Shown here in pieces: positions 301 to 64,000 of a stretch of DNA of 64,000 bases. The translations under genes and the position numbers were made by a program. The DNA comes from Ischnura elegans (taxonomy: Eukaryota; Arthropoda; Insecta; Odonata; Coenagrionidae), in contig NC_060247.1 in the NCBI RefSeq assembly GCF_921293095.1, positions 116,455,111-116,519,110 of the forward strand. The letters run 5' to 3'. Positions within the stretch are counted from its first letter, which is position 1. The number at the start of each line of letters is the position of its first letter. Below the pieces are notes generated by a model, which worked only from the letters and a program-made list of their open reading frames with translations, searched no databases and was not told where the DNA came from.

Positions 301-760
301 CACAGTGGGCTAGAATCGAAAAAAGCTGGCCAAAACCTCCAAAACAATTTTTTTAAGCTAGGAAGTTGAAACTTCGTATATATACTCTCAACTAAATTGT
401 GCATATTTTTCCAGATTATTTTTTCGCTGTGTTTTCACGTTAACAATATATGTGGGGTCAATTTGAACAGATTTAGCAAAAAACGACCTCCCTCGATTTT
501 TTCTAAAAATTGCTAACTTTATCCTCGTGCAGTGGTTTCATGAATAGTTTTACCGAAAACTCTGTTATGCCATCTTAATTGGCAAATATTTTCCTTCACT
601 TTGAAGGGTTTTCAAAGATATCGTGTCATCAATAACTATAGATGTATAACAAAATGGCGGAGCCAGTTTTCAGCCCATTTTGTTACATAAACGTAGAGAA
701 GAAGTAGATATTATCATCGACTTACACTACGTAACTTATACTCTTGCTACCATTCAGCTC
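301..760 (+). mobile_element. End-copy of the RAG1/Transib-like element (5'-type end)
   Basis: Begins with CACAGTG at 301-307. A 22-base spacer follows, then CCAAAACC at 330-337. The next 80 bases closely follow the copy at 60996, including the shared GGAAGTTGAAACTT. Both copies also share AAAATGGCGGA about 350 bases in (near 652 here, near 61343 there). No transposase frame follows, so this is a truncated or internally deleted copy. The border near 760 is where I lose the similarity. The link to a RAG1-like element is inferred from the copy at 60996, which is followed by RAG1-like frames. Confidence 0.6.
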
Positions 761-1910: not shown

Positions 1911-3226
1911 ATGCGGGACTATAGGACTATTAGCTTAATATCTCACGCGGCGAAAGTGGTACTGAGGATATTGAACAGACGAATGGAGGCGAGGGCAAAC
2001 GAGTATTTGGGCGATTATCAGTTTGGTTTTAGAAAAGGGAAGTCAACTCGTGACGCAATAGCGATAATGAGGTCCCTGGTGGAGAGGAACTTAGAATATG
2101 ACCAGGACGTGTATGCCTGCTTTGTGGATTTTGAGAAAGCATTTGATAGAGTGAAGTGGGTAAAGTTAATGGATATTCTCAAGAAAATAGGTGTAGATTG
2201 GAGGGATAGGCGTCTGATTCGTAACCTGTATGTGGCACAGACTGAGTAAGGGAGGGTAGCGGATGGTGAATCTGGGTGGGCAAGAATGGGCCGCGGAGTG
2301 AGGCAAGGCTATCCTCTATCGCCGATGCTCTTTAACGTGTACGCTTAAGAGATGGTAAGGGAAGCGTGGGATGAATAAGAAGCTGGAGTAAAAGTGGGAG
2401 GAATGATGTTCAAATCACTGAGATTCGCTGATGATCAGGCGTTGATTAGCCAGTCAGCGAGGGGGCTTCAGGCTCTGGTGGATGCGTTACACAAGCGTTG
2501 CGAGGAATATGGGATGAAGATTAATAACAAGAAAACTAAGGTTATGCGGTTTTGCAAAGCCTCACGAGAGAGGAATGTTAGGCTTAAGATATAAGTGGGT
2601 GGTGAAAAACTTGAGCAGGTTGAGCAGTGCAACTATTTAGGCCCCACATTAGAGGAAAACGGATACAGTAGTAAGGATATTAGGAAGAGAATTGCATAAG
2701 CAAAGGAGGCGTTAATGAACAGAAAGGAGCTTCTAGGAGGTTCGCTATGCAAGGATTTAAAGAAAAGACAAGTGAAGAGTCTGATCGGGAGTGTTGCGCT
2801 TTACGGTGCAGAATCGTGGACGCTACGGAAGGAGGATGAGGGAAGACTCGAGGCATTCGAGATGTGGGTGTGGCGAAGAATGGAGAAAGTGAAGTGGACG
2901 GACAGGAGGAGGAACGACGAAGTGCTGGACATGGTGGGTGAGGATAGGCAGCTATTAGATGAGAAACGGAGGAGGCGGAAGGTATGGATGGAACGAGTAC
3001 TTAGCGGGGATGGGATGTTGAAAACAGTCTTAGAGGGAAGAACATTACGTTAACGAGGGAGGGGAAGGAAAAGAATAGGATTTTTAGATAGAATTAATGG
3101 TAGTAGGTTTTAATTGTACACTGAAGAGGGAGTTGCGTGATGTAAGAGGAGGCTCCCGGAATCCTTCTTAAGCGCTCCATGGAAACCTTCCTTAATCGGT
3201 AGAATACTTTAATAATAATAATAATT
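1911..3226 (+). mobile_element. Non-LTR retrotransposon (LINE), decayed reverse transcriptase and 3' end
   Basis: A 5'-truncated LINE on the plus strand. The translated frame shows reverse-transcriptase blocks in order: DYRTISLISHAAK (near 1914), YQFGFRKGKSTRDAI, CFVDFEKAFDRVKW, GRGVRQGYPLSPMLFN (near 2289) and the active-site box FADD (near 2425). The C-terminal LINE region LYGAESWTLRKEDEGRLEAF lies near 2800. At least five in-frame stops (near 2247, 2346, 2377, 2592 and 2697) break the frame, so it is dead. It ends in a short TAA microsatellite (3210-3226), a usual LINE tail. The protein resembles the RTE/endonuclease-RT group also present on the minus strand at 56741-59520. The exact clade is not certain. 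Confidence 0.85.
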
Positions 3227-4228
3227 CATTAATGGTTACATAATTATTGAGATTATGTGTATTCAGATATTTATTGATTTTTGCACAGAATGTTATAGTC
3301 CAAACCAATTTTTTTGTCTTCGATAACAAATTATTAATTACAATATTGATTTTCAACCTTAATACAGGATTTTTTTTTCAAGTGTACAACATCAAGTTTT
3401 AAGTCCAAACTTCGAACTACAACCGACCTGTTGACGACCCTTTCCGGAGATACTTCACCTGAGTGGCTGATATGTCATCCATTAATGATTTCTCGAGGTT
3501 AAAGCCATCATTTTCCCTCGTTGTTGGGGACTAATTTCCCGAATAGTAAAAACTAGTGATTTGTTTTCAGAGGGTTAAACAATCTCCACCAAATGTGAAA
3601 CATTTTCTAAAAAATATTTTCATTTGTACGCGTGTCTACGCGGTCGTTAGATTTAGGAGTGGCCTGGGAATACCTTATTTTCGGCGTTTATCAATATCTC
3701 CAGTACGCAGGAGAATGTTTGAGCCAATCCAATCGATTAAGATGGTGAATTCTTTTGTGTAACTTTTTAGCATGTTGTTGCTCGCAAACTTTTACAATTT
3801 ATATGCTCTTTATTCCTGAAATAATAAACTCCATACCTATAACTACTATTATCATAAATATATCTCCAGTTTCGCCTCAAAGTTTCACCGTGGAACTAAT
3901 TCATGGATAATATTCCATTGCCTTATTTAATGGAATCCATTAAGTTTTACAAAAAGGCTTAGTAGCATGTCTTCCAACAAAGTACCATCGGCGATATTAT
4001 CTCACAAATTTGCCGATGATCCAGTGCCGAATTGCAGAAGGCTGCAGTACTGCGTCAGAGGAATCATTCTTTCTCGCATAGTATTACAATACTGAATATA
4101 AAACCCTTACAACGTCCATTAGATATTCGAGCATATCTCTCCCAATTTCATCATAATCCGTGGTTGTCGAGTGAATACTTCCTTGTCGCTATCTAACTGA
4201 TAGCCTATTCGTTCAGATTATGAATATA
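3227..4228. other. AT-rich flank, nothing recognised
   Basis: About 1 kb of AT-rich sequence between the LINE tail and a nested repeat cluster. No open frame over 70 codons, terminal repeat or RNA gene is recognisable. Confidence 0.4.
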
Positions 4229-4372
4229 CTAGCTGACCCGGCGAACTTCCTACCAGTGGCGGCCGGTGGTAATATATTCAGGGTGAGCATTGGAGAAGAT
4301 ATACGATGATTAAAAAGTTCAAATGATGACTGCCAAATGGCACTGAATGCATTGACGGACTTGGATCCTGAG

Positions 4373-7689: not shown

Positions 7690-8236
7690 CGTGAAGTGCG
7701 ATCGAAAAATTACGTTCATTTTTGCGCCCGCAAACTTTTTTCCAAGACTTTTGTTTTGTATTCTTAAACTATCTCTAGTAAATACTCTGATGAAAAAAAG
7801 GAGAACTGTTTTTTATCTAACTAAAGATATTGTTCACTTTATGTCAGGTTTTGCCGGAAAAAACGGTCCGCCGTTATTCGATATCATACCAAACCAATAT
7901 TAACCCATAAATATTAAAAATGATGTAAAATGTAGATAAAGTACGGTATTATAGGAATATAATGTTTTTATATCATTAAAATCCTTCCAAAACTCTGCCA
8001 CCATCTAACTTCTGTAGTTTTTCGAAGAAATACGAGATCGCGCGGGATTTTGGAAATTTGGTCATGTTTGTTCCTTTTTATCATAGCAACGGCTGGGATC
8101 TATGAAAAATGACTTATTGTTCCATGATCACTTCTGATTTTTAAGCATATGCACTAACAATATAAGTTTCCAGTTTCTACCACAAAAAAGCAAATTTGGA
8201 CTTGTGTCCTGCTTTTTCCGATCTCGGACCACTGTG
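7690..8236 (-). mobile_element. End-copy of the RAG1/Transib-like element, reverse orientation
   Basis: Read on the minus strand from 8236, it begins CACAGTG, then a 22-base spacer, then ACACAAG. Further in it shares GGAAACTT and TTAGTGCAT with the 60996 copy, and an AACGGCGGACC block near 7875 that corresponds to AATGGCGGACC there. Several hundred bases are alignable by eye with drift. No transposase frame remains. The inner border near 7690 is approximate. Confidence 0.5.
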
Positions 8237-23800: not shown

Positions 23801-26800
23801 TCTATTTCGTTTAATACCAGATTTAATGTGAATTTATAAGTTAAAATCCAAAAAAGGTTCAATTTTTGCGTGTTTCGCTTACTGTCCCCTTGACGGCCGT
23901 CAATATTGTTTATGCCGTTTGAAATATCTTTCTATCACACTAAATTATAAATGGCATATTCCAAGAAGGTATATTACTACCACGAATCCCTATTATTCCG
24001 ACAGATGTGACTGTTTAATACATACGGGTTCAATTTCTTATTAGATTGGCAATCGAAATGACAATACATAAGACCAAAGTACGTCTGTTTGTGGCTTAGA
24101 TATTGGAAAACTCTATTTTCTCACACAGACACAATTTTACGAGACACGTTTTATCGCATGGTAAACCTTTCAGTTTGTTTGTGTTGGCTAAGGATGGATA
24201 TACTATAAATACCATACACTTCATCGCAATAACAGACAAAAATTTCGGGCAGGTACAGTTAATAGGGTAGGAGAAAAAGACACCTATCGATAAAATTTCC
24301 TACCGACATATCTAGGATAGGGAATGTAGATCTGCAGAATACTTTATATGCTGGAATAGTACGTTGCCTCCTAGCATGCCGTTAAAGCCTTATCGCAGAA
24401 ACTGCAGTAACAGGTCTGCAAACGCGAAACATTAAATGCACTATTTTACCGATAAAAAATTAAGCTGTAACAAGTGCATTAGTTTTCTTTAACTTCTATC
24501 TTGTTTTGTACCTTATTTTTATCTACCAGTAAGAGTTTCAGTCCCTAACCTAATTAATCAAAAAATATGTAAGCTTATAATCGAATTTCAGCATTTTCGA
24601 TTCGATTTTTCTTGCAGAAAAATGGCTCAAGCGGAATGCGCATCATTGCTAAATGTGACCACTATGGTAAGGATTATGTCCTTTAATTTTTATTGATCTC
24701 GCAAAAGAGGAAACCTGTATATAACGATTTTGATATATCCCCATTTAATTTACATTGAAAATATATTTCGGCAAAAAGTTAAAGCTATGGTTGCCATGGC
24801 AACCAAAAGATAACAAAATTCTTATATCACCATTCACGTTCTATCCTAAAAATTTCAAACTGGTACTCTCAATAATAAAGGAGAAAATGAGACCTATCGA
24901 TATTATTTCATTTCGATATATCTTACAAAGGAATCATTACTCATCAAAATATTTCACATGTGGGTATAGAACGTTGCTGTCTAAGTAAATTTAAAAAAAA
25001 TTTATCCCCGTAACTATGTAAATAAGCCTGGTAAAGACGTATATAGAATGCACACTTTGATCGATAATAACTTCGTTTGTAATCACTTTATTCGCTTGAT
25101 TTAACTTCTTTCTCATAGAGCACGTTAAATTAATTATTACATTTGATTTTCGTATTCATATGTTGGATAACAATAAAGTTATTAGCGAATAAAGCGTATC
25201 CAAGGAGATTGTTATCGATATAACTCTCACATTAATCGATCGCCTGGAATGGTTATCATTGCAAAAGCTGTCCTTTTTAATTATAGTATTACTCTGAAAA
25301 TTTCATTCCTCTAACTTGAACAGTTGCCAAGTTATTCAAGATCGTGTGCTTCACAAAATTATGGCGACAATGATATTTCACGTGCAGGATATTTTTCGGA
25401 ATTTTATTATGAATTAACCAAGAGGTTTATCGGAAAAACAGGGTGGATCGTGAGGGTTCAAAGTATCCTCCACGGTTTTTCACGTAGATTCCGAATTTTC
25501 ATATGGCACATGTCTCCGAAATCCGAAATTGAATATTTGTCTCCTCGACAATGGAAAATCTAAAGTCGTTTATTCCTCGGAATTCTTTCGACAAATGAAT
25601 ATTCCAAGATAACAAAAAAATCAAGCAAAAAATCTAGTATCTTGCGTTTCAAGGAATTTGTCCTACAATTATTGCAAGGTGGTCAAATAAAATTCCAAAG
25701 ATAGGCCCGTAAGAAAAGCATAGGAAATTTTCAAAAAATCATAAAAAATACTTTTTATCAAAATATCGCAATGACAATCACATTAAAAAATTGACCAAAA
25801 AATTTAGTTTTCGTCACAGGAATCTCATCTTCCTGAAACATCAACAAATACGCAATAATTGGGAAAAAGATTTAGTCCCATAAGGCTCCCATGTTAATTC
25901 AAGTCGATATATCTCAAAAACTAATAAACTTGTGTTAACGTGTGTTAACACGGCTAACTCGAGAAACTTCTCCTGTCCAAATAATTAAAGCACTTGGTTT
26001 GCCAATGTTTGGCATTCAAATTTCAGGATGCGCCGGAAACTCATAGCCAAGTCTATATAAACTTTTATATATTTTATTCAGTGTCAACTCATAATTTCCG
26101 GTTTAGTATTGGTTAAAAATAGTCAACTTTTAGAAATCACATTCATCGTTTCAGCCGTAAATACACCTTTAAATTTGAATTATGGGTGCCGCAAATTTTT
26201 TCGTACCTTGCGGTGTACAAAAAAATACAGAGAGAAAAGAATATTCATAAGCGAAGAAGAAGGAATATGTCGTGGAATATTTGAAAAAAAGATTTCGACT
26301 AAATGAAATCAAGCATGCAAAAAATATTCTGACGCGTTTTTCGCGAAGAATGTTTTCTCGAAATACCTAAGAAAGTGGAATCAAAGGTCGAGGACAGATG
26401 AGCATTTCAAAGAAACGTTCAAAAGCTAGTTGCAGAAGGAAATGAAATTCCCTCCAGAAGTATATCAATATCTCCCTCTCGCATCTAGTGAGTGCGAATG
26501 ATTAACGTGTATGCACAGTCGGCGAATCTAGGCAGTGTATAAAAATAATCACTTATTAATCTCAATCGTCATATTTTTAAAAGTGGAGTTTTAATTCAGG
26601 ATTTCATTTCAGACAAGATGAGATTACGTGTAAATATAAAATTATAATCAATAAGTAAGAAATATTGGACCCGTTTCCATAATTTTGAAAAATCTACGAA
26701 CAAATCTTTTTTGTATGAAATGTAATTATTAATGTGATTTGCAATATTCACGACAGGTATCTATAAAGACTTGTTCATAGACTTACAGTAACATTAAAAT

Positions 26801-29800
26801 CTCTATCCTGCGGCTATGAGATAAATAATGAAGCCTTCAGCCAGTATTGCATTGAAATAGCTGAGCTGTACATCGATTATGGTTGGTATTATATTCTGCT
26901 TATGGTACATAAAGTGCTGATACATGGGACAGCAATTTCCAAAGAATCCTTTCTTACAATTGAAGTTTTAACGGAGGAAGCATTGGAGGCCAGGAACATA
27001 GACATGAGGAAATTCCGAGTGCAACGTACAAGAAAATCCTCAATAATGTTAAATTATGAAGATATCTTTTGAAGCTCCTTTAAATAATTGAATCATACAT
27101 TTTTATTACACCAGGAGTTGCAAGAAACGAAGTCAGCCTATCAGGTGAGGTGAAAATTTGCTAATTTTAACTGATATGCAGAGCGACAATGAGTCCGATG
27201 AGGTGATATCGGACGACGATTCTTTTAAAATTCGTTTTTTGTGATACATGAGAGCGATTTTATTGCAATTAGAACATTATTTTCCTCAATGTTCTTAATA
27301 TCAGTCATTTTATTTCATCTAATGTGACTTATCAAATACATGGAAGCCAAAAAATAAGTGAGTGTGAGTATTTGTTTCCGATTTTGTTATCTCACCGACT
27401 ATGCTGATGGTCGCGGGTTCGAATCTCACCAATTTCATGTCGTAAATTCTATAATGGGTTTTAAAAACAATTTGTACATATTTTGCCTTAAAATTATACT
27501 ATTTTAAGCTCTCCATGAACACCAAGTTATCGCCAATCGCATTGACATCTTTATCGAGATTTTCTAAAAATTGTTTAAATAATAACAGCTCAAAAAATGC
27601 TAAAATGAAGAGATACCGTAAAAATAATGCCAAAATCAGATTCAAACGATCAAAATCAGTAAGCTTTTTTAAGGTTTCAGAGTACCACTTTTGTTGCTAT
27701 TTTAGGTAAAATTACGAGGTTATTAATTTTGGCCAGCTTTTTTCGATTTGGGACCACTGTCGGTCATGGGTCTCGTGCTCCGTCTGCTTCCGCGGGTGAT
27801 GACCTCAGGCGGGCGGCGGTCTCCGGGGAGAGGATCCTCTGGGATGGCGTGCGCGCTCCTCGCGGAGGGTGCGAGTGCGGCGCCGGTCCACCCGCAGTTT
27901 ACGGGGCATCCGGCTGGATGAGGGGACGAAACGTCAGCGCCTAGCGGCAAAACCTCTGAGGATATGCTCGCTCGGGTTCGCACTTAGGCCGCCTTAACCG
28001 CGACCGCCTTCCACAGCCTCGGGCACGGCCTTTTATACCAAATCCTGGCCTCCCTCCGTCCAATGAGGGCGCTCCGCTTGGTCACGAGGTTTAGCGCGTT
28101 TAGCTGCGGGAGTGGCGAAATCACGTGGTGTGAGGGGAAGGCAGCCGGCTGGATTGGGGGCGCGTGTTTTAAAGTGGGTTTTGCCCATGTTATATTCCAG
28201 CACAACAAATACAATGCTTTTTGATTATAGACGCTAGTTCTTTCCACCACTAATGAGACACCTGAAAAATTGATGTTCAGCAGACCACTTAGGTCTACAC
28301 TTGATCTCCTGAGACCAAATGTAGCCAGAAGCGTTCAGCTAAAACAGGATAACAAAGGAGTATTTTGGTGGTAAAAAGGGTAGCATTCTCTATCCAAATC
28401 AATCTGTGTTAGCGAGGGATTATCGTTCTGAAAACAAGTGGATCAAGTGTGTTGTTCTGGAACAATTGAGTAGCACTATGTTCTCTGTTATAGTCTAATA
28501 AGGGTTAATTTGGAACAGACACATTGATCTGCTAATTGCCCTAGACAGTAGTATTGTTATTAAGAGTCAGCAGCCCTCACATTCATTCATTCATTCACAA
28601 ATCAGTCCTGATGGCCACAAGAGCATGTGTTAGCGAGGCATGCGTCCCTTATTGATTTCTTAGAGTCATTGCTTTTCTTATCGATTCGCTCCACAACTAA
28701 TGAGTGCAATGTGAGTAACTTGTGATTTTTTTATATTTTGTCATCCAGGTGTGTTTTTCATGTGTCAGATATTAGTGTGGGGATCCAAATATTGTTCAAA
28801 TTTTGAGGGGGGAGATATAATGTATAAAAAATAACTAAAATATCTCATTGGCTATCATTCGTGCCACTTCTTTGGGCATCAAGACCCGGAATGTAAAAGG
28901 TGGTATGGGGAACCGGCTTAGTCGAGGTCAGTCGATGTTTTCGTCCTACATAACGCAGTTCTCACTTATATCATTTTCCGATTCCACAATGCTCCATATG
29001 TTACAGTTAGAATTTCATTCCTACTTAAGTTGTCGAAAAGATGTGAATGCCATATAAGACTTGGTGCTTCCCAGGCGAACGATGTGGATGACTGATTCTC
29101 AAGATTCCCATCGGGATAGTTGTTCTATTGGAGCCGATATTTCAAACGCTACCTCTGCCTTCGTCCTGAGGGCGTTGTAGCTGGGTGAGGATTTGTCTGA
29201 ATTTATATATCTTCTGGCCGTGCGTAGGGTCATTTCTGATTGGCCGTCGTCGATCTCGTCTTTTTTGTTTTCTTGTGACGTCTTAATGATCTTGTGCACT
29301 GATTTTCATGCTTGACTGCTTGCAGGGGCGGATACAGAAAAAACTCAAGGGGGGGGGCTGCTAAAGATATCTTGACCAACTTTTACTTTCAACGTAATAA
29401 AAAATGGAAATCAAGTGAAATTTAGAGTTTAAGAAAGCTTAATTTTAACTCATAATCCACGTACACTATGCCAATTATTGGTTATGAAAAGTTACAATTG
29501 TGGTTCTACACCTACCTTAAATAATGAAGTCTCTGCGCCTATTCTTCCTGGCAAATTCGGTAATTACATCGTCAATAGGGCAATCGATGTCAGGGTGAGT
29601 GTTCATCAGAGCTAAACCATTGAGTCGATCCTCCTTCATTGTCGTCCTCAGCCATGTCTTCGTACGCCGCAAAGTAGAAAAACTTCTCTCTACTGTAGAG
29701 ATAGACACAGGTAGGCACGCAAATATTTTGTACAGCGTGTGCAAAGTGGGATAATCCGATGTAGGACAAACAGACAACGCTTGCACAACAGAATCAAGGT

Positions 29801-58260: not shown

Positions 58261-59421
58261 TTATTCACGGCTTTCTTCATTTTTTTTAAATTGCAGGAGG
58301 CATTTCATCGTAACAGAGTTATGGTCACTACCGAAATCTGCTCCTGGATAACTTTTGCAGTCCTTCACCTGGTTCCTGAATCTTTTTTTCACTAGAATGT
58401 AGTCCATTTGGTGTGTTCTAAGGTCTCCTGGCATCTTCCACGTGTATCTTCTCCGCAGGGAATTTTTGAATAAAGTTTTGGCAACCACTAGCCTATGCTC
58501 AGTGCAAAATTCCATTAGCCTTTCTCCTCTTTCATTTGGGTTACCTAACCCATATTTCCCAGTTATTATTCCGTCTTGACCTCCGCCAACGACGGCGTTC
58601 CAGTCACCTAAAATAATAAGATTTTCTTCCCCTCTTACCTGCTTGATAACTTCCGCTATATCGTGGTAGACATCTTCTACTTCTTCGTCTTCATAATCTG
58701 ACGTAGGCATGTAAACCTGCACGTCTACAGTAGCTACGGGTTTAGTATCTATCTTCACCATAACTATCCTTTCATTAAACTGCAGGTAGCTTTTAACACG
58801 CATTCCGGCACTCTTTCTAAGCATTATGCCTACTCCAGCATTACGATTTAGCGATCCTGTGTGTATCATTCTGTAGCTTCCACCCCAAAATTCTCCTCCT
58901 TGAGGCCACTCCATATCGCTGATGCCTAATACGTCGAGGTTCATTCTTCGCATCTCCACCTTCAAGTTCTCTAGCCTACCGCAGGTACAAATTGATCTAA
59001 CGTTCCATGTTCCTATCCTTAACATTCTATCACCTTTGACCGATGTACCCTCTCGATTAGTCCCCGCCCGGAGATCCGAATGGGGGACTACTTTACCTTC
59101 GGAATATTTTACCCGAGAGAATTCCATCATGTCATTATATAAATTGAGTGGAGTAGCTGCGACTCCTCGGGATGATAATGTGGTGGTTTCCTCTTGCCTT
59201 CCACATCGCAGTACTACGGCGGTTAAAGTAAATGTTACCACGCCCGTAGTGAAATGTGTGTCGCTGTATCGACCAGTTTGGTCTCCACCTCCGCACATGT
59301 GAAAAAGAGCTGCTGCCCTCTCCCTCGGGTGATGAGAGGCATAATTGTTGGCGGCCCCCAGACGCCAAGTGCCGGAATTTTTACAGGTCTCAGTATCATT
59401 TAAATGGTCTACCTTACCCAA
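58261..59421 (-). CDS. LINE APE-type endonuclease (craniofacial development protein 2-like)
   Basis: A 386-codon open frame. After a variable N-terminus (about 1-130) comes RIGTWNVRSICTCGRLENLK (about 135), the apurinic-endonuclease start with the metal-binding Asn. LDVLGISDMEWP follows (the usual catalytic Glu, ETxW, is Asp-Met-Glu here), then LIILGDWNAVVGG (D and N of the active site), HQMDYILV and SDHNSVTM (catalytic Asp-His near the end). It nicks target DNA for retrotransposition. The linker and RT follow after a stop. The first ATG is uncertain because the leader frame is open further upstream. Confidence 0.85.
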   Translation of the reverse strand: MGKVDHLNDTETCKNSGTWRLGAANNYASHHPRERAAALFHMCGGGDQTGRYSDTHFTTGVVTFTLTAVVLRCGRQEETTTLSSRGVAATPLNLYNDMMEFSRVKYSEGKVVPHSDLRAGTNREGTSVKGDRMLRIGTWNVRSICTCGRLENLKVEMRRMNLDVLGISDMEWPQGGEFWGGSYRMIHTGSLNRNAGVGIMLRKSAGMRVKSYLQFNERIVMVKIDTKPVATVDVQVYMPTSDYEDEEVEDVYHDIAEVIKQVRGEENLIILGDWNAVVGGGQDGIITGKYGLGNPNERGERLMEFCTEHRLVVAKTLFKNSLRRRYTWKMPGDLRTHQMDYILVKKRFRNQVKDCKSYPGADFGSDHNSVTMKCLLQFKKNEESRE

Positions 59422-59529
59422 GGGTAGCCCAATACCCCCTCAGAACACCGCCGCTTTTTGTCCACGACTGCTTATTCGACGAGAGAACTCGCTTATCTCG
59501 CAGCTAACCTCTATATCTAAAGGTCGACC

Positions 59530-60139: not shown

Positions 60140-60995
60140 TAAAAAAAAAACATTATGGCCGCCGCCACAGACACACGTGTTGTTACCGTCCCGATGATTT
60201 TTTGTTTTTTTGTCGGTGCAAACGCGGTTTTCTGCCAGTTTTATTCTGTTTTATGTGAGTGAACCCACACCCTCTCCCACTACAGATTATCATCTTATTT
60301 CTGTGCTTCGCCTGTGCTCTATAAGAAGTTTTGTGTTTCCGTGCTCACCGCCTTGTCGTCTCCCCCTAGTGAACTCCATCTCCCGGCGATCCCTAGTGCC
60401 CTGCCCCAGAGACTCGCGTTGCATCCCCGGCGATTCGGGCATTCTCTGTGGGTTCATTTCTGCGCTTGTGTTCCTTGTGGAAGCACTTAGCTTTCCTCAT
60501 CCTTCTTGCTGGTGATTTAAATATTAATCCTGGTCTGGTGTGCAATTTGTAATACCAGAACTCGCGGAGCATTCTAAACAAACTCTCGGATCTCGCCGCT
60601 CACATCAGTGAACTCTCCTCTTTCCAAGTGATTGCGCTTACCGAAACATGGCAAAGTGAAAAAATTTCTGACTATGATTGAAGTTCGCTTCCTCTCTCCA
60701 CATTTTCCGACGAGATCGACCCACTCGTGGTGGGGGCTTGCTTGATTCAAATTTGCCTGCAATTGGCGGATGGATCTAGAACTAAACTGTGAAATAGTGT
60801 GGACAGAAATTCAATTTTACCGCGGAAAAAACTGCGGTCGGAAGTTATTCATTGGTTGCTTTTATCACCCACCCAATAGCGACCTATCCATCCTCGAGGA
60901 GTGCTTTGCATCGGTTCTCCGTGTCCGCTCGCCTGGTGATGTGATCTTATTTGGGGACTTCAATCTATCTATTGTGTGGATATCCCGCACCGATG
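60140..60995 (+). mobile_element. CR1/Jockey-type LINE, ORF2 start with 2A-like motif and endonuclease fragment
   Basis: A plus-strand frame near 60487-60537 reads LAFLILLAGDLNINPGL, close to the LLLxGDVExNPGP motif that opens ORF2 in some CR1-like LINEs. After frameshifts come ELSSFQVIALTETW (APE endonuclease ETW) near 60620, RKLFIGCFYHPPNSD and VILFGDFNLSI (near 60840-60980). It is cut at 60995 by the RAG1-like element. Decayed and partial. Confidence 0.72.
60511..60537 (+). other. 2A-like translational recoding motif, degenerate
   Basis: Codons give GDLNINPGL. The 2A consensus is D(V/I)ExNPG followed by P. Asp, Asn, Pro and Gly are kept, while Glu is replaced and the final Pro is Leu, so activity is doubtful. 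Position at the LINE ORF2 start fits published 2A-bearing non-LTR elements (general knowledge). Confidence 0.4.
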
Positions 60996-61032
60996 CACAG
61001 TGGGCTGAAATCGAAAAAAGCTGGACAAAACC
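60996..61032 (+). repeat. RSS-like terminal repeat (heptamer, 22-base spacer, nonamer-like)
   Basis: Heptamer CACAGTG (60996-61002) is identical to the consensus recombination signal heptamer. ACAAAACC (61025-61032) is the nonamer ACAAAAACC minus one A. The spacer includes AAATCGAAAAAAGCTGG, shared with the ends at 301 and 27760. Confidence 0.7.
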
Positions 61033-61339
61033 TCGAAAATGGTTTTTTTGAGTATGGAAGTTGAAACTTTGCACAGTTGTTGCCAACACATTAGTGCATT
61101 TTTTGACGCAAAATGTTTTTCATAAGTTAATTTTTTATAGAAAATACATAGCCTCAAAGTTGAACAAATTTTGCGCAAATTGCCCGCTTTGAATTTTTTT
61201 CGAAATTCAGCATGTTTAAACTAATGTCACACCTTTAGTAGCAATTCAATAGCAACAAAAAATTATACAATTGTTAAACGGTTTGTTATCATTGATTACC
61301 ATCAACTTTCACGACTTAGTTGTCGTAATTGTGACCAAT

Positions 61340-62070
61340 ACGATACAAAATGGCGGACCCTGTTTTTCGTCGAATTTTTGTGTTTATGTAGGATTTTAAA
61401 AAAAGGATCACCGAGTTACCTCGAGATATTTACACCACATATACTACAAAGTATGTAGATTATGATAATGGGAAGTGCAGCTGCGACCACCTGCGACGCC
61501 GAAATTAAGATCGATTTTTCGAACGTGCGGCACCGCCCGGAGCTGGCTGCTGGCCACGGGAATTGCCGTACTCGACGGATGTTGGCTAGTGAATCATTTT
61601 AAGCAAATTTATTGTATAAAAGCTATGATATATTATTACTACATTTATTTTCCTTTTATTTTAACCTGATTTCTTTACTGTCTTGTAACATTTATCGTCG
61701 ATGCAGTACAAAATGGCGGACGCTAATTTCAGTAACGTTTTTGCCCGTGTGTGGCTGTATAAAAAGAAGGACACCGAGTTGCTCTCAGATATTTACATCG
61801 TAATTGCATAAAGCCTTTTAGAGTCTCCATCCACAGAAATAATCTGCGACCGTTCCCAAAAAACAAAATAAAATCGATGTTTTTACCGTGCCGCGCAGTC
61901 CGTGGCTGCTCCCTGGGCGCATGGAATGTCGTGACGCAGCGTACATTATAAAGCGCTATGAAGTCTTTGCAGTGGATATGTTTTATTTCAACATAATTAT
62001 TACTATTTCATTTCAAGTTGGTTTATTGTCACTTTAGGTAAATGAATTCGCTCCTCTATCCATTTCTACT
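61340..62070 (+). repeat. Tandem repeat of about 363 bases within the RAG1-like element leader
   Basis: GATACAAAATGGCGGACC near 61339 and GTACAAAATGGCGGACGC near 61706 begin parallel units. Each then shows an A-rich AGGA(T/C)ACCGAGTT block and GAGATATTTACA or CAGATATTTACA, then AAAATCGATGTTTTT- or AAGATCGATTTTTC-like sequence followed by CGTGCCGC or CGTGCGGC. About two diverged units. Confidence 0.6.
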
Positions 62071-62084
62071 GACTAGTGACTACT

Positions 62085-62902
62085 TACCAAATTCCCGAAT
62101 GCAAACTAGCTGACTTGAAACTCTGACAATTCCGCACGTGCATTTTACCCCTTGGATGGGTAAAACGGCTCTATTAGCCTGCTTCTAACCTCAAAGACAA
62201 AATAGATTTTACAACCAGCCGACCAGCCCGCAGCTGGTTGGTATTTGCCCGTCCACCCCATGCGGTAGTCGCGAAAATGGTCTTTTTATGACTCCACGTT
62301 GCTCGTGTGCGGTCCCTTTTACCTTTTTCGGATATTCCGTTTCCAGAAAGAAATGCATATATGAATTTAGTTTTGAATATACAGTGAAAGAGGTTTGTTG
62401 TGCTGTGGTGATTTTGGATGCACTCGGACACACGCGCTTTGGATATTGATAACTCCGGGGAATCTCATCGGTTTTCTGCTTTAACTGCATATGCGGTGTA
62501 AAACACTCATTCACCAGGCATCTATCATCCAAACTGGTAAGAGATTTTCATTTGTAGTTCTTGATATTTGCCTCGTGCTATAAGCAATTTCCCTTTTTTT
62601 ATTTACCATTAACGCCTCTAGAATTGACCCTTTCTTTTATTTTAATGTATGTTACTTGTTATTGGTAACTCGTTCCCCTGAAATAGAACCAGTGTTGAAT
62701 TGAACAACAAATTTGGAGCAATTTTAAAATGTCTGGTCTCGAGGTAACTCGTCTATTGCTTCATAAAAAAAGTTGTCAAATACGGATGTAAATCCTTTTC
62801 GGAGAGATATGAATTTTTAATGTAATATCTTACGAAAAAATTTCATGCGCAAGGTAATATTGAAGCTACGAAGGGCCTTAGTGACTCTCTTAAACGATAT
62901 TT
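62085..62902. other. RAG1-like element leader, nothing else recognised
   Basis: Overlapping minus-strand frames (62174-62532) have no domain. It probably holds the element's 5' non-coding part or untraceable exons. Confidence 0.35.
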
Positions 62903-64000
62903 TTGATTCGCTACCAAAGCAAATGGGAAGCCTGCAGTAGAGACAATGAAAGATTTTTAAGGAGAAATATTAAGTGGCTGAAAGCACCTATATATGTACC
63001 AGAAAACGTTCCAGAATTGACAAGAGCTTCTAATTCTTCGGGTAAGTATATGCGATTTATAAGTGACCTGAGTTGTTGCATTATCTCAACGGATTTAAGG
63101 GCGATTTTTTACTCATTTTGATCCCATTATAATCTGGTGGACGCCCGGAAAAATATTTTACGATATTAGCGAAAGAACTAAGAGGAAGAAGACTGAAAGT
63201 CTTAGATCTTCTCACTCGGCGGCAACTTTATTATTCGCAGCATCGATGACATTAAGAGAGGAAGGAGATGAGGCGGCATCCAAATTATTGAAGGAAATTA
63301 CAATGACCACTCCAACCAGAGCAAGGAGAGTCCTAGCTAAAGGGAAGACACCCATCTCAGGTTCCTCCATGATGTCAGAAGACGAGGCTCTTTCTGTTAT
63401 CATATCGATGCAACTAACAAAATATCAGTACAATGGTCTTCGGAAATAGCTGAAAGCCATGGTCATAAATTATACCCGAACTATGAAAGAGTGAGGCTTG
63501 CTAAAAATGCTGCGTACCCGGATGGCATAGAGATTATAGAAATACCGTGCAAAGTCAATCTACAAAGTCTCCTCTCGCACACTGCCTCACGGATTCTAGC
63601 TTGCGTGGCAACTGTTCCTGATGCCAGAAGTGAATTGAAGTGCACTCTGATTTGTAAATATGGTTTCGACGGCAGTTCTGGGCATTCACCGTACAAGCAA
63701 GTTTGGCAACAAGAGCCTAGGTCGGGGGAATATTTGTTTATGAGTTCTATGGTGCCCCCGACCGTTCATAAGGTCCTAATACACGGAGAAGGTATAGCTT
63801 CAGAGATGATTCTTCCTCTAGGGCAATTATCTGAAGAAGCAATTGAAGCACGCAATAAAGATAGCAGAAAATATCGAGAAAGCTTTAGAAGGAAGCGCTA
63901 AAGAATATCTACCAACGATGATTTATTTCGCCGGCTCCTCCTGACCTCGGATCCAGTAATATCCAATGCCGCACCTCTTGTTACGAAGAAATCCCGAAGA
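62903..64000 (+). pseudogene. RAG1/Transib-like transposase, decayed, central domain deleted
   Basis: Pieces in three frames read in family order. N-terminal: SKWEACSRDNERFLRRNIKW (62903 on). Then DISERTKRKKTESLRSSHSA and LREEGDEAASKLLKEITMTT, PTRARRVLAKGKTP (63150-63446). After a frameshift: LYPNYERVRLAKNAAYPDG, VNLQSLLSHTASRIL, KYGFDGSSGHSPYKQVW (63655-63710). Then a jump straight to [28 protein letters not shown], a TAA, and STNDDLFRRLLLTSDPVISN to the edge. DGSSGHS should hold the first catalytic Asp and SEEAIEARNK the last Glu. The block between MSSMVP and PPTVHK, where the second Asp and zinc-binding part belong, is missing (several hundred residues). So the copy cannot make a working enzyme. 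Assignment by remembered motifs. Confidence 0.62.

Follow-up and report, generated by a model that had tools for sequence, protein, structure and literature searches.

The element and its insertion site

Toward the right edge of the window (the whole stretch of DNA analysed here, 64,000 nucleotides from Ischnura elegans), a LINE endonuclease frame on the plus strand (60746..60995) is cut at position 60996 by CACAGTGGGCTGAAATCGAAAAAAGCTGGACAAAACCT. The left part of this frame matches Pfam Exo_endo_phos_2 with an E value of 1.4e-4 and 22.2 bits, under the cut-off of 27.4, and fusing the two flanks with a single CGATG yields an uninterrupted LINE endonuclease frame. The pentamer stands on both sides of the insertion, at 60991..60995 and, outside the window, at L009:4265-4269 (L009 being the retrieved region that holds the window copy), and together with the restored frame it marks 60996 as a true transposon end, as an earlier note on this DNA had proposed. 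The inserted copy (plus strand, L009:107-4264) measures 4158 bp, starts with CACAGTGG and terminates in CCACTGTG. Position 64000 is merely the end of the window; the element is 1153 bp longer, and its right end, symmetric with the left one, was recovered 1.15 kb beyond. The two TIR arms measure 991 bp on the left (60996..61986, +) and 997 bp on the right (L009:3268-4264) and are 98.4% identical. Another LINE endonuclease frame, open over 391 aa, lies on the minus strand of the window at 58261-59439 (Exo_endo_phos, E 3.4e-10).

The left terminus begins with the heptamer-like CACAGTG (60996..61002, +), which is also the consensus of 34 family arms, and continues with a 22-bp spacer (61003..61024, +) holding a block, ATCG.AAAA.GC.GG, that is common to other Transib-type ends. 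The nonamer-like ACAAAACCT follows (61025..61033, +), matching 7 of the 9 letters of ACAAAAACC, the RSS nonamer used for comparison. The arrangement that the earlier note described is indeed present, and its heptamer is the vertebrate consensus. Seven or more of the nine nonamer letters at a spacer of 22 or 23 occur at a fraction of 0.0047 of 200,000 random window positions; the heptamer by itself is not rare, since CACAGTG is found 11 times in the window against 4.5 expected, three of them being Transib-type ends (301, 8230-8236 and 60996). Across five ends (the family consensus, the sister family represented by L028, and the window ends 301+, 8236- and 27761-), ACAGTGG, the C at position 10, the spacer block and CA.AA at the nonamer position are constant, and nonamer scores at spacer 22 run from 5 to 7 of 9. 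The nonamer-like stretch is partly conserved and the spacer block is conserved better, in contrast to RSS.

The further Transib-type ends in the window occupy 301-374 (+), 8164-8236 (-) and 27727-27761 (-), the last with G instead of C as its first base, and apparently belong to other families. None of the three could be paired with a second end or a duplication (CGACG precedes 301 and CACCT follows 8236). A C-terminal remnant of another Transib transposase is located at 26767-27072 (+), inward of the end at 27761 by about 700 bp.

The transposase gene

The window copy holds the pieces of one broken transposase gene, to which the decayed frames with DGSSGHS and SEEAIEARNK noticed earlier both belong. 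Read against the exon set predicted in the copy L010, it retains a remnant of exon 1 with a broken frame (62729..63041, +; donor GTAAGT at 63042), a remnant of exon 2 with the first catalytic Asp in FDGSSGHS (63137..63752, +; upstream acceptor lost, frameshift near 63443) and a remnant of exon 5 with the catalytic Glu in SEEAIEARNK (63759..64000, +), which extends past the window. Between the last two lies the junction of an internal deletion (63753..63758, +), at which about 1.12 kb is missing relative to L010, including the second catalytic position, a C-x-x-C motif and exons 3-4. The window frame at 63341-63898 matches PDB 6pqn, which we take to be the HzTransib transposase of Helicoverpa zea, with an E value of 9.3e-25; the match falls into two blocks, residues 39-138 and 387-436, and about 248 residues are absent between them. 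The one other chain with E up to 1 was 7ona (SAKe6AC), for which 5.3e-7 is a summed value with no single stretch passing.

The earlier note had suggested looking for an intact copy; in L010 the gene is unbroken, and its 705 residues match 6pqn with E 3e-121. Five exons are predicted there (element coordinates 1734-2046, 2142-3073, 3145-3351, 3440-3614 and 3747-4237), and exon 2 may contain a further intron in the roughly 90 bp ahead of IIWENSRPSST, in which case the protein would have about 675 aa. The catalytic residues are those presumed for Transib transposases. The window copy and L010-L026 all retain the first Asp and the Glu of the triad; the second Asp, residue 208 of the 6pqn chain by our own count, was located through M-I-D-G-K and the downstream C-x-x-C.

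Copies in the genome

The genome searched comprises 1,722,721,009 bases in 110 contigs and holds at least 151 matches, sister families counted in; copy numbers are lower bounds because 150 of 3965 first-look candidates were scored. Twenty copy regions (L009-L028) were retrieved, mostly chosen for good frames and not as a random sample. Both ends were placed in 18 copies, 17 of the window family and L028 of the sister family, and all of these but L024 (17 of 18) are flanked by a perfect 5-bp target duplication; in L018 the left end was not placed, and in L027 neither end was. Twelve of the 17 duplications fit CNNNG, that of the window copy (CGATG) among them, and 10 fit CGNCG; the non-fitting ones belong to L011, L013, L016, L020 and L025. 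CNNNG is often the form of the target duplication in Transib, according to the sections of PMC7764229 used here. Four copies are full-length (L010-L013, 5324-5351 bp), and only L010 is unbroken among them, L011-L013 having indels and L011 and L013 stops as well.

Two further observations concern related copies. In the sister-family region L027:2339-5449, exons of the Transib transposase are separated by long LINE frames, apparently a nested insertion. A multi-copy subfamily, with matches of about 78-85% over residues 34-137, has one TAG, apparently a common stop; several of its copies are situated near contig ends (C1:2066411, C5:1087588, C19:121755394), which suggests duplicated blocks there.

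Family placement

The element in the window is very probably a cut-and-paste Transib transposon in the form of a dead copy with an internal deletion. It represents a new Transib family and stands outside the RAG1 lineage: a family profile built from 120 homologs plus the L028 translation (121 sequences) gives 655 bits for 6pqn, 50 for RAG1L (6b40) and 36-45 for vertebrate RAG1. The earlier assignment to the RAG1 lineage stands in part: a DDE transposon related to RAG1, its RSS-like terminus, a 5-bp duplication and genome copies that end alike are borne out, but the lineage itself is Transib.

Two other accounts of the locus would place the end or the gene differently. Chance could have set a heptamer beside an unrelated decayed transposase, and CACAGTG is frequent enough in the window to raise the thought, but 17 of 18 copies end precisely at this point with duplications and the end is common to 34 arms, which refutes the account and leaves it with virtually no probability. 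A RAG1L/RAGL element of the ProtoRAG type, of RAG1 lineage and with a RAG2-like partner, would share the heptamer of the vertebrate consensus; the family profile does reach RAG1L and RAG1 (E 1e-12 to 2.5e-8), and the homolog P0018 matches Pfam RAG1 with E 1.1e-4, under the cut-off. Membership in that group is disfavoured by the profile scores, however, and Pfam gives no RAG1 hit for the protein of L010. The RAG2-like gene that the earlier note had proposed to look for inside full-length copies, or a convergent RAG1L-RAG2L pair, was not seen in the frames of six copies searched with Pfam (L010-L014, L017), whose largest non-transposase frame has 125 aa, lies inside the arms and has no Pfam match. 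We judge a RAGL element extremely unlikely and keep the placement in Transib. A phage collection, as was to be expected, gave no match to the element.

The resemblance to RSS is real, yet it is a known Transib property, and the asymmetric form is absent here: both element ends have an identical 22-bp spacer and are thus without 12/23 pairing. Symmetric spacers of 20-22 bp are described for Transib ends in the portion of PMC8355894 used here, along with a few ends that show 12/23 asymmetry. Since RSS-like Transib ends were already published there, the window end contributes little to the question of how V(D)J recombination arose, on which the earlier note had expected it to bear.

The shared deletion and the long arms

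One internal deletion of about 1.12 kb is common to the window copy and several dozen others (a count by eye among the matches listed), with a few letters in common at the break and an in-frame fusion. Over the fused 333-codon region, pN/pS is 0.77 among deleted copies (13 copies, 78 pairs), 0.22 among the four full-length copies (6 pairs) and 0.43 between the two forms. When each variant is counted once, this region holds 59 synonymous and 159 nonsynonymous variants in deleted copies versus 11 and 8 in full-length ones (Fisher p 0.008), and 6 synonymous and 5 nonsynonymous differences are fixed between the groups. Counted over the complete coding sequence, 21 synonymous and 33 nonsynonymous variants occur in full-length copies (p 0.097), and pN/pS of single full-length pairs ranges from 0.33 to 1.54. 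These figures point to constraint on the full-length form without proving it; the near-neutral variant counts in deleted copies make the deleted form resemble a passenger.

One of two unusual features of the family is its TIRs of about 1 kb, nearly identical within each copy. The left arm measures 982-993 bp and the arms are 98.4-98.9% identical in 14 of the 17 family copies with both ends; L025 has arms of 855 bp that are 99.6% identical, the terminal match of L024 covers 43 bp only, and in the sister family L028 arms of 1126 bp are 99.7% identical. Inverted arms of 1973 bp with a single mismatch were also observed at L026:3910-8957. Transib TIRs in general are 9-60 bp long. Those of moth Transib MITEs measure 13-27 bp in the sections of PMC7764229 cited above, and a keyword-level search of the open-access literature listed no paper recognisable as dealing with kilobase TIRs in Transib.

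In 14 copies (L025, L026, L018 and L024 excluded), the arms of every copy agree in 141 of the 156 variable columns of the outer 940, gapped columns being skipped, and a copy's own left-right mismatches total 15 over all copies; in 200 partner shuffles the total never fell below 335 and averaged 491. Columns 941-1014 comprise 3 concordant and 17 partly discordant columns and 5 fixed left/right differences. Sites at which two copies differ in the arms agree in both arms at 4 of 5 for L015/L017, 8 of 14 for L010/L012, 12 of 16 for L009/L014 and 1 of 3 for the closest pair, L020/L022. Because copies with 0.2-0.6% interior difference share some both-arm changes and the innermost 70 bp or so stay left/right different, we infer frequent copying between the arms of a copy, within the time over which copies diverge.

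Both the shared deletion and the arm agreement could be read otherwise. KP, an internally deleted derivative of the P element, is a repressor that arose by an in-frame internal deletion and was amplified in trans, and the deletion form described here might likewise encode a useful shortened protein; the in-frame fusion would suit this, as would the frames that, in many of the matches listed, stay open through the junction for as much as 335 aa. The fused frame shows no clear selection, though, its variants being near neutral by both pN/pS and counts, and the window copy is frameshifted, so we rejected a KP-like repressor as very unlikely. As for the arms, their agreement might reflect the youth of the copies or assembly errors: 10 of the 15 disagreements fall in the outer 200 bp, near unique flanks, a pattern that polishing could also yield, and the I. 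elegans assembly, built on HiFi reads, underwent one round of short-read polishing according to the part of PMC9975421 used here. By the same source, however, the HiFi reads came from 12-20 kb fragments and so span the element; changes between copies are present in both arms, for which youth alone is insufficient, and left/right differences persist in the inner 74 columns. Youth or assembly error is an unlikely explanation, and arm-to-arm copying is preferred.

Asparagine at the second catalytic position

The other unusual feature, Asn in place of the second catalytic Asp, is no more than a lead. Nineteen of 26 loci (L010-L013, L027-L048) are readable at the second catalytic position, and 17 of these encode Asn and two Asp (L029, L041); at the remaining seven the stretch is absent or partially matched. 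Asn is found in L010-L013, and the window copy has lost the stretch by deletion. The Asn loci read TM(I/V)NGK or a near form (for example L010:3985 and L028:4473), use both Asn codons and fall by our own grouping in five families: over a 54-residue stretch, family B (L028) shares 57% identity with A (L010), 74% with C (L031) and 70% with D (L027), and L040 forms a fifth on the tree. L028 and L044 are identical across 1001 compared bases, so these two loci are possibly not independent. We aligned 184 distinct homologs drawn from the best 120 of 895 and the best 120 of 855 matches, both searches having Asn-bearing queries that enrich for Asn; at the second Asp, 176 of them have D and 8 have N, with no other substitute, at the first Asp 183 have D and one has N, and the Glu is retained in 182, replaced by D in one and gapped in one. 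The only named one among the scattered Asn-bearing relatives is P0028 of the beetle Zophobas morio. With the second Asp missing or replaced by Asn, our claim is one of a Transib by descent that is non-autonomous, not of an active Transib; this residue marks an active enzyme and is not diagnostic of descent, being absent also in 8 of the 184 listed relatives.

In RAG1, the substitution D708N abolishes recombination, as stated in the part of PMC12216023 used here, and our own alignment would put D708 at the same position as the second Asp of Transib. A Transib/RAG-type site in the damselfly families and scattered relatives might nevertheless run with an Asn-encoded second Asp, Asn being either functional itself or converted to Asp by Asn-Gly deamidation or A-to-I editing, and such a conversion after transcription or translation would amount to a switch on the recombinase. 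We consider this unlikely. The 17 of 19 loci, the 8 of 184 homologs and the otherwise unbroken Asn-bearing gene of L010 favour an Asn enzyme, whereas constraint on Asn-bearing copies is significant within a single region (p 0.008) and falls short of significance across the entire gene (p 0.097). Family B copies such as L028 lack, by our own reading, the conserved stretch ahead of RFCRP and are thus damaged otherwise too, and the two subgroups of family B compared with each other give a near-neutral pN/pS of 0.66. A further counterpoint is that the first Asp also precedes Gly, yet is Asn in one of the 184 homologs only.

Editing of the Asn codon was rejected after eight Asn loci were folded and gave no consistent RNA fold: the codon A is strongly paired in family A only (L010, L013), is intermediate in L040 (0.41) and is unpaired in the other five, and it is paired in one of two Asp loci. 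CpG decay was likewise rejected as the cause of the change from Asp to Asn, as the preceding base fits families A and E only (GTC AAT, ATC AAC) and the others have ATA. Dead copies mobilised in trans are likelier than an Asn enzyme, which we retain as a testable minority reading; a recurrent Asp-to-Asn change at a residue indispensable to RAG1 offers a direct and cheap probe of active-site needs.

Proposed mechanism and comparison with known systems

Judging by what is known of Transib and RAG, a Transib transposase would bind each of the two identical ends of the element described here at its heptamer and A-rich block, form hairpins on the flanks and excise the element, which would then insert elsewhere and produce the 5-bp duplication. 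The deletion form would make no complete enzyme and spread in trans, and the arms of about 1 kb would repeatedly be copied onto each other by repair via a folded or gapped intermediate, perhaps a cruciform or a template switch in gap repair. The ends, duplications, homology, shared deletion, long arms and within-copy agreement are read directly from the DNA; movement itself was not observed.

The element leaves the story of V(D)J recombination unchanged. What it provides is an odonate multi-copy Transib system with paired full-length and deleted forms, in which within-copy arm agreement lets one study the timing and route of copying between the inverted-repeat arms of a RAG-related transposon.

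Among known systems, Transib (6pqn) shares with the window family the homologous transposase, 5-bp duplications, CACAGTG-type ends, a spacer of about 22 bp, an A-rich stretch and the single gene seen; the family differs in its homogenised kilobase TIRs and in the Asn of its readable full-length copies, the window copy being deleted at that point. RAGL/ProtoRAG elements and vertebrate RAG1 with its RSS have in common with it the heptamer, the 5-bp duplication and a distant transposase homology, whereas the window family has no RAG2-like gene in six copies, symmetric 22/22 spacers and a much lower similarity to them. KP-type derivatives resemble the deletion form as in-frame internal deletions amplified in trans and differ from it in that the fused frame of the window family is without a clear sign of selection. 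Galileo of Drosophila belongs to the P superfamily, a transposase superfamily distinct from Transib. It too has long TIRs, of up to 1.2 kb, but generates 7-bp duplications in the portion of PMC2775673 used here, compared with the 5-bp duplications of the window family.
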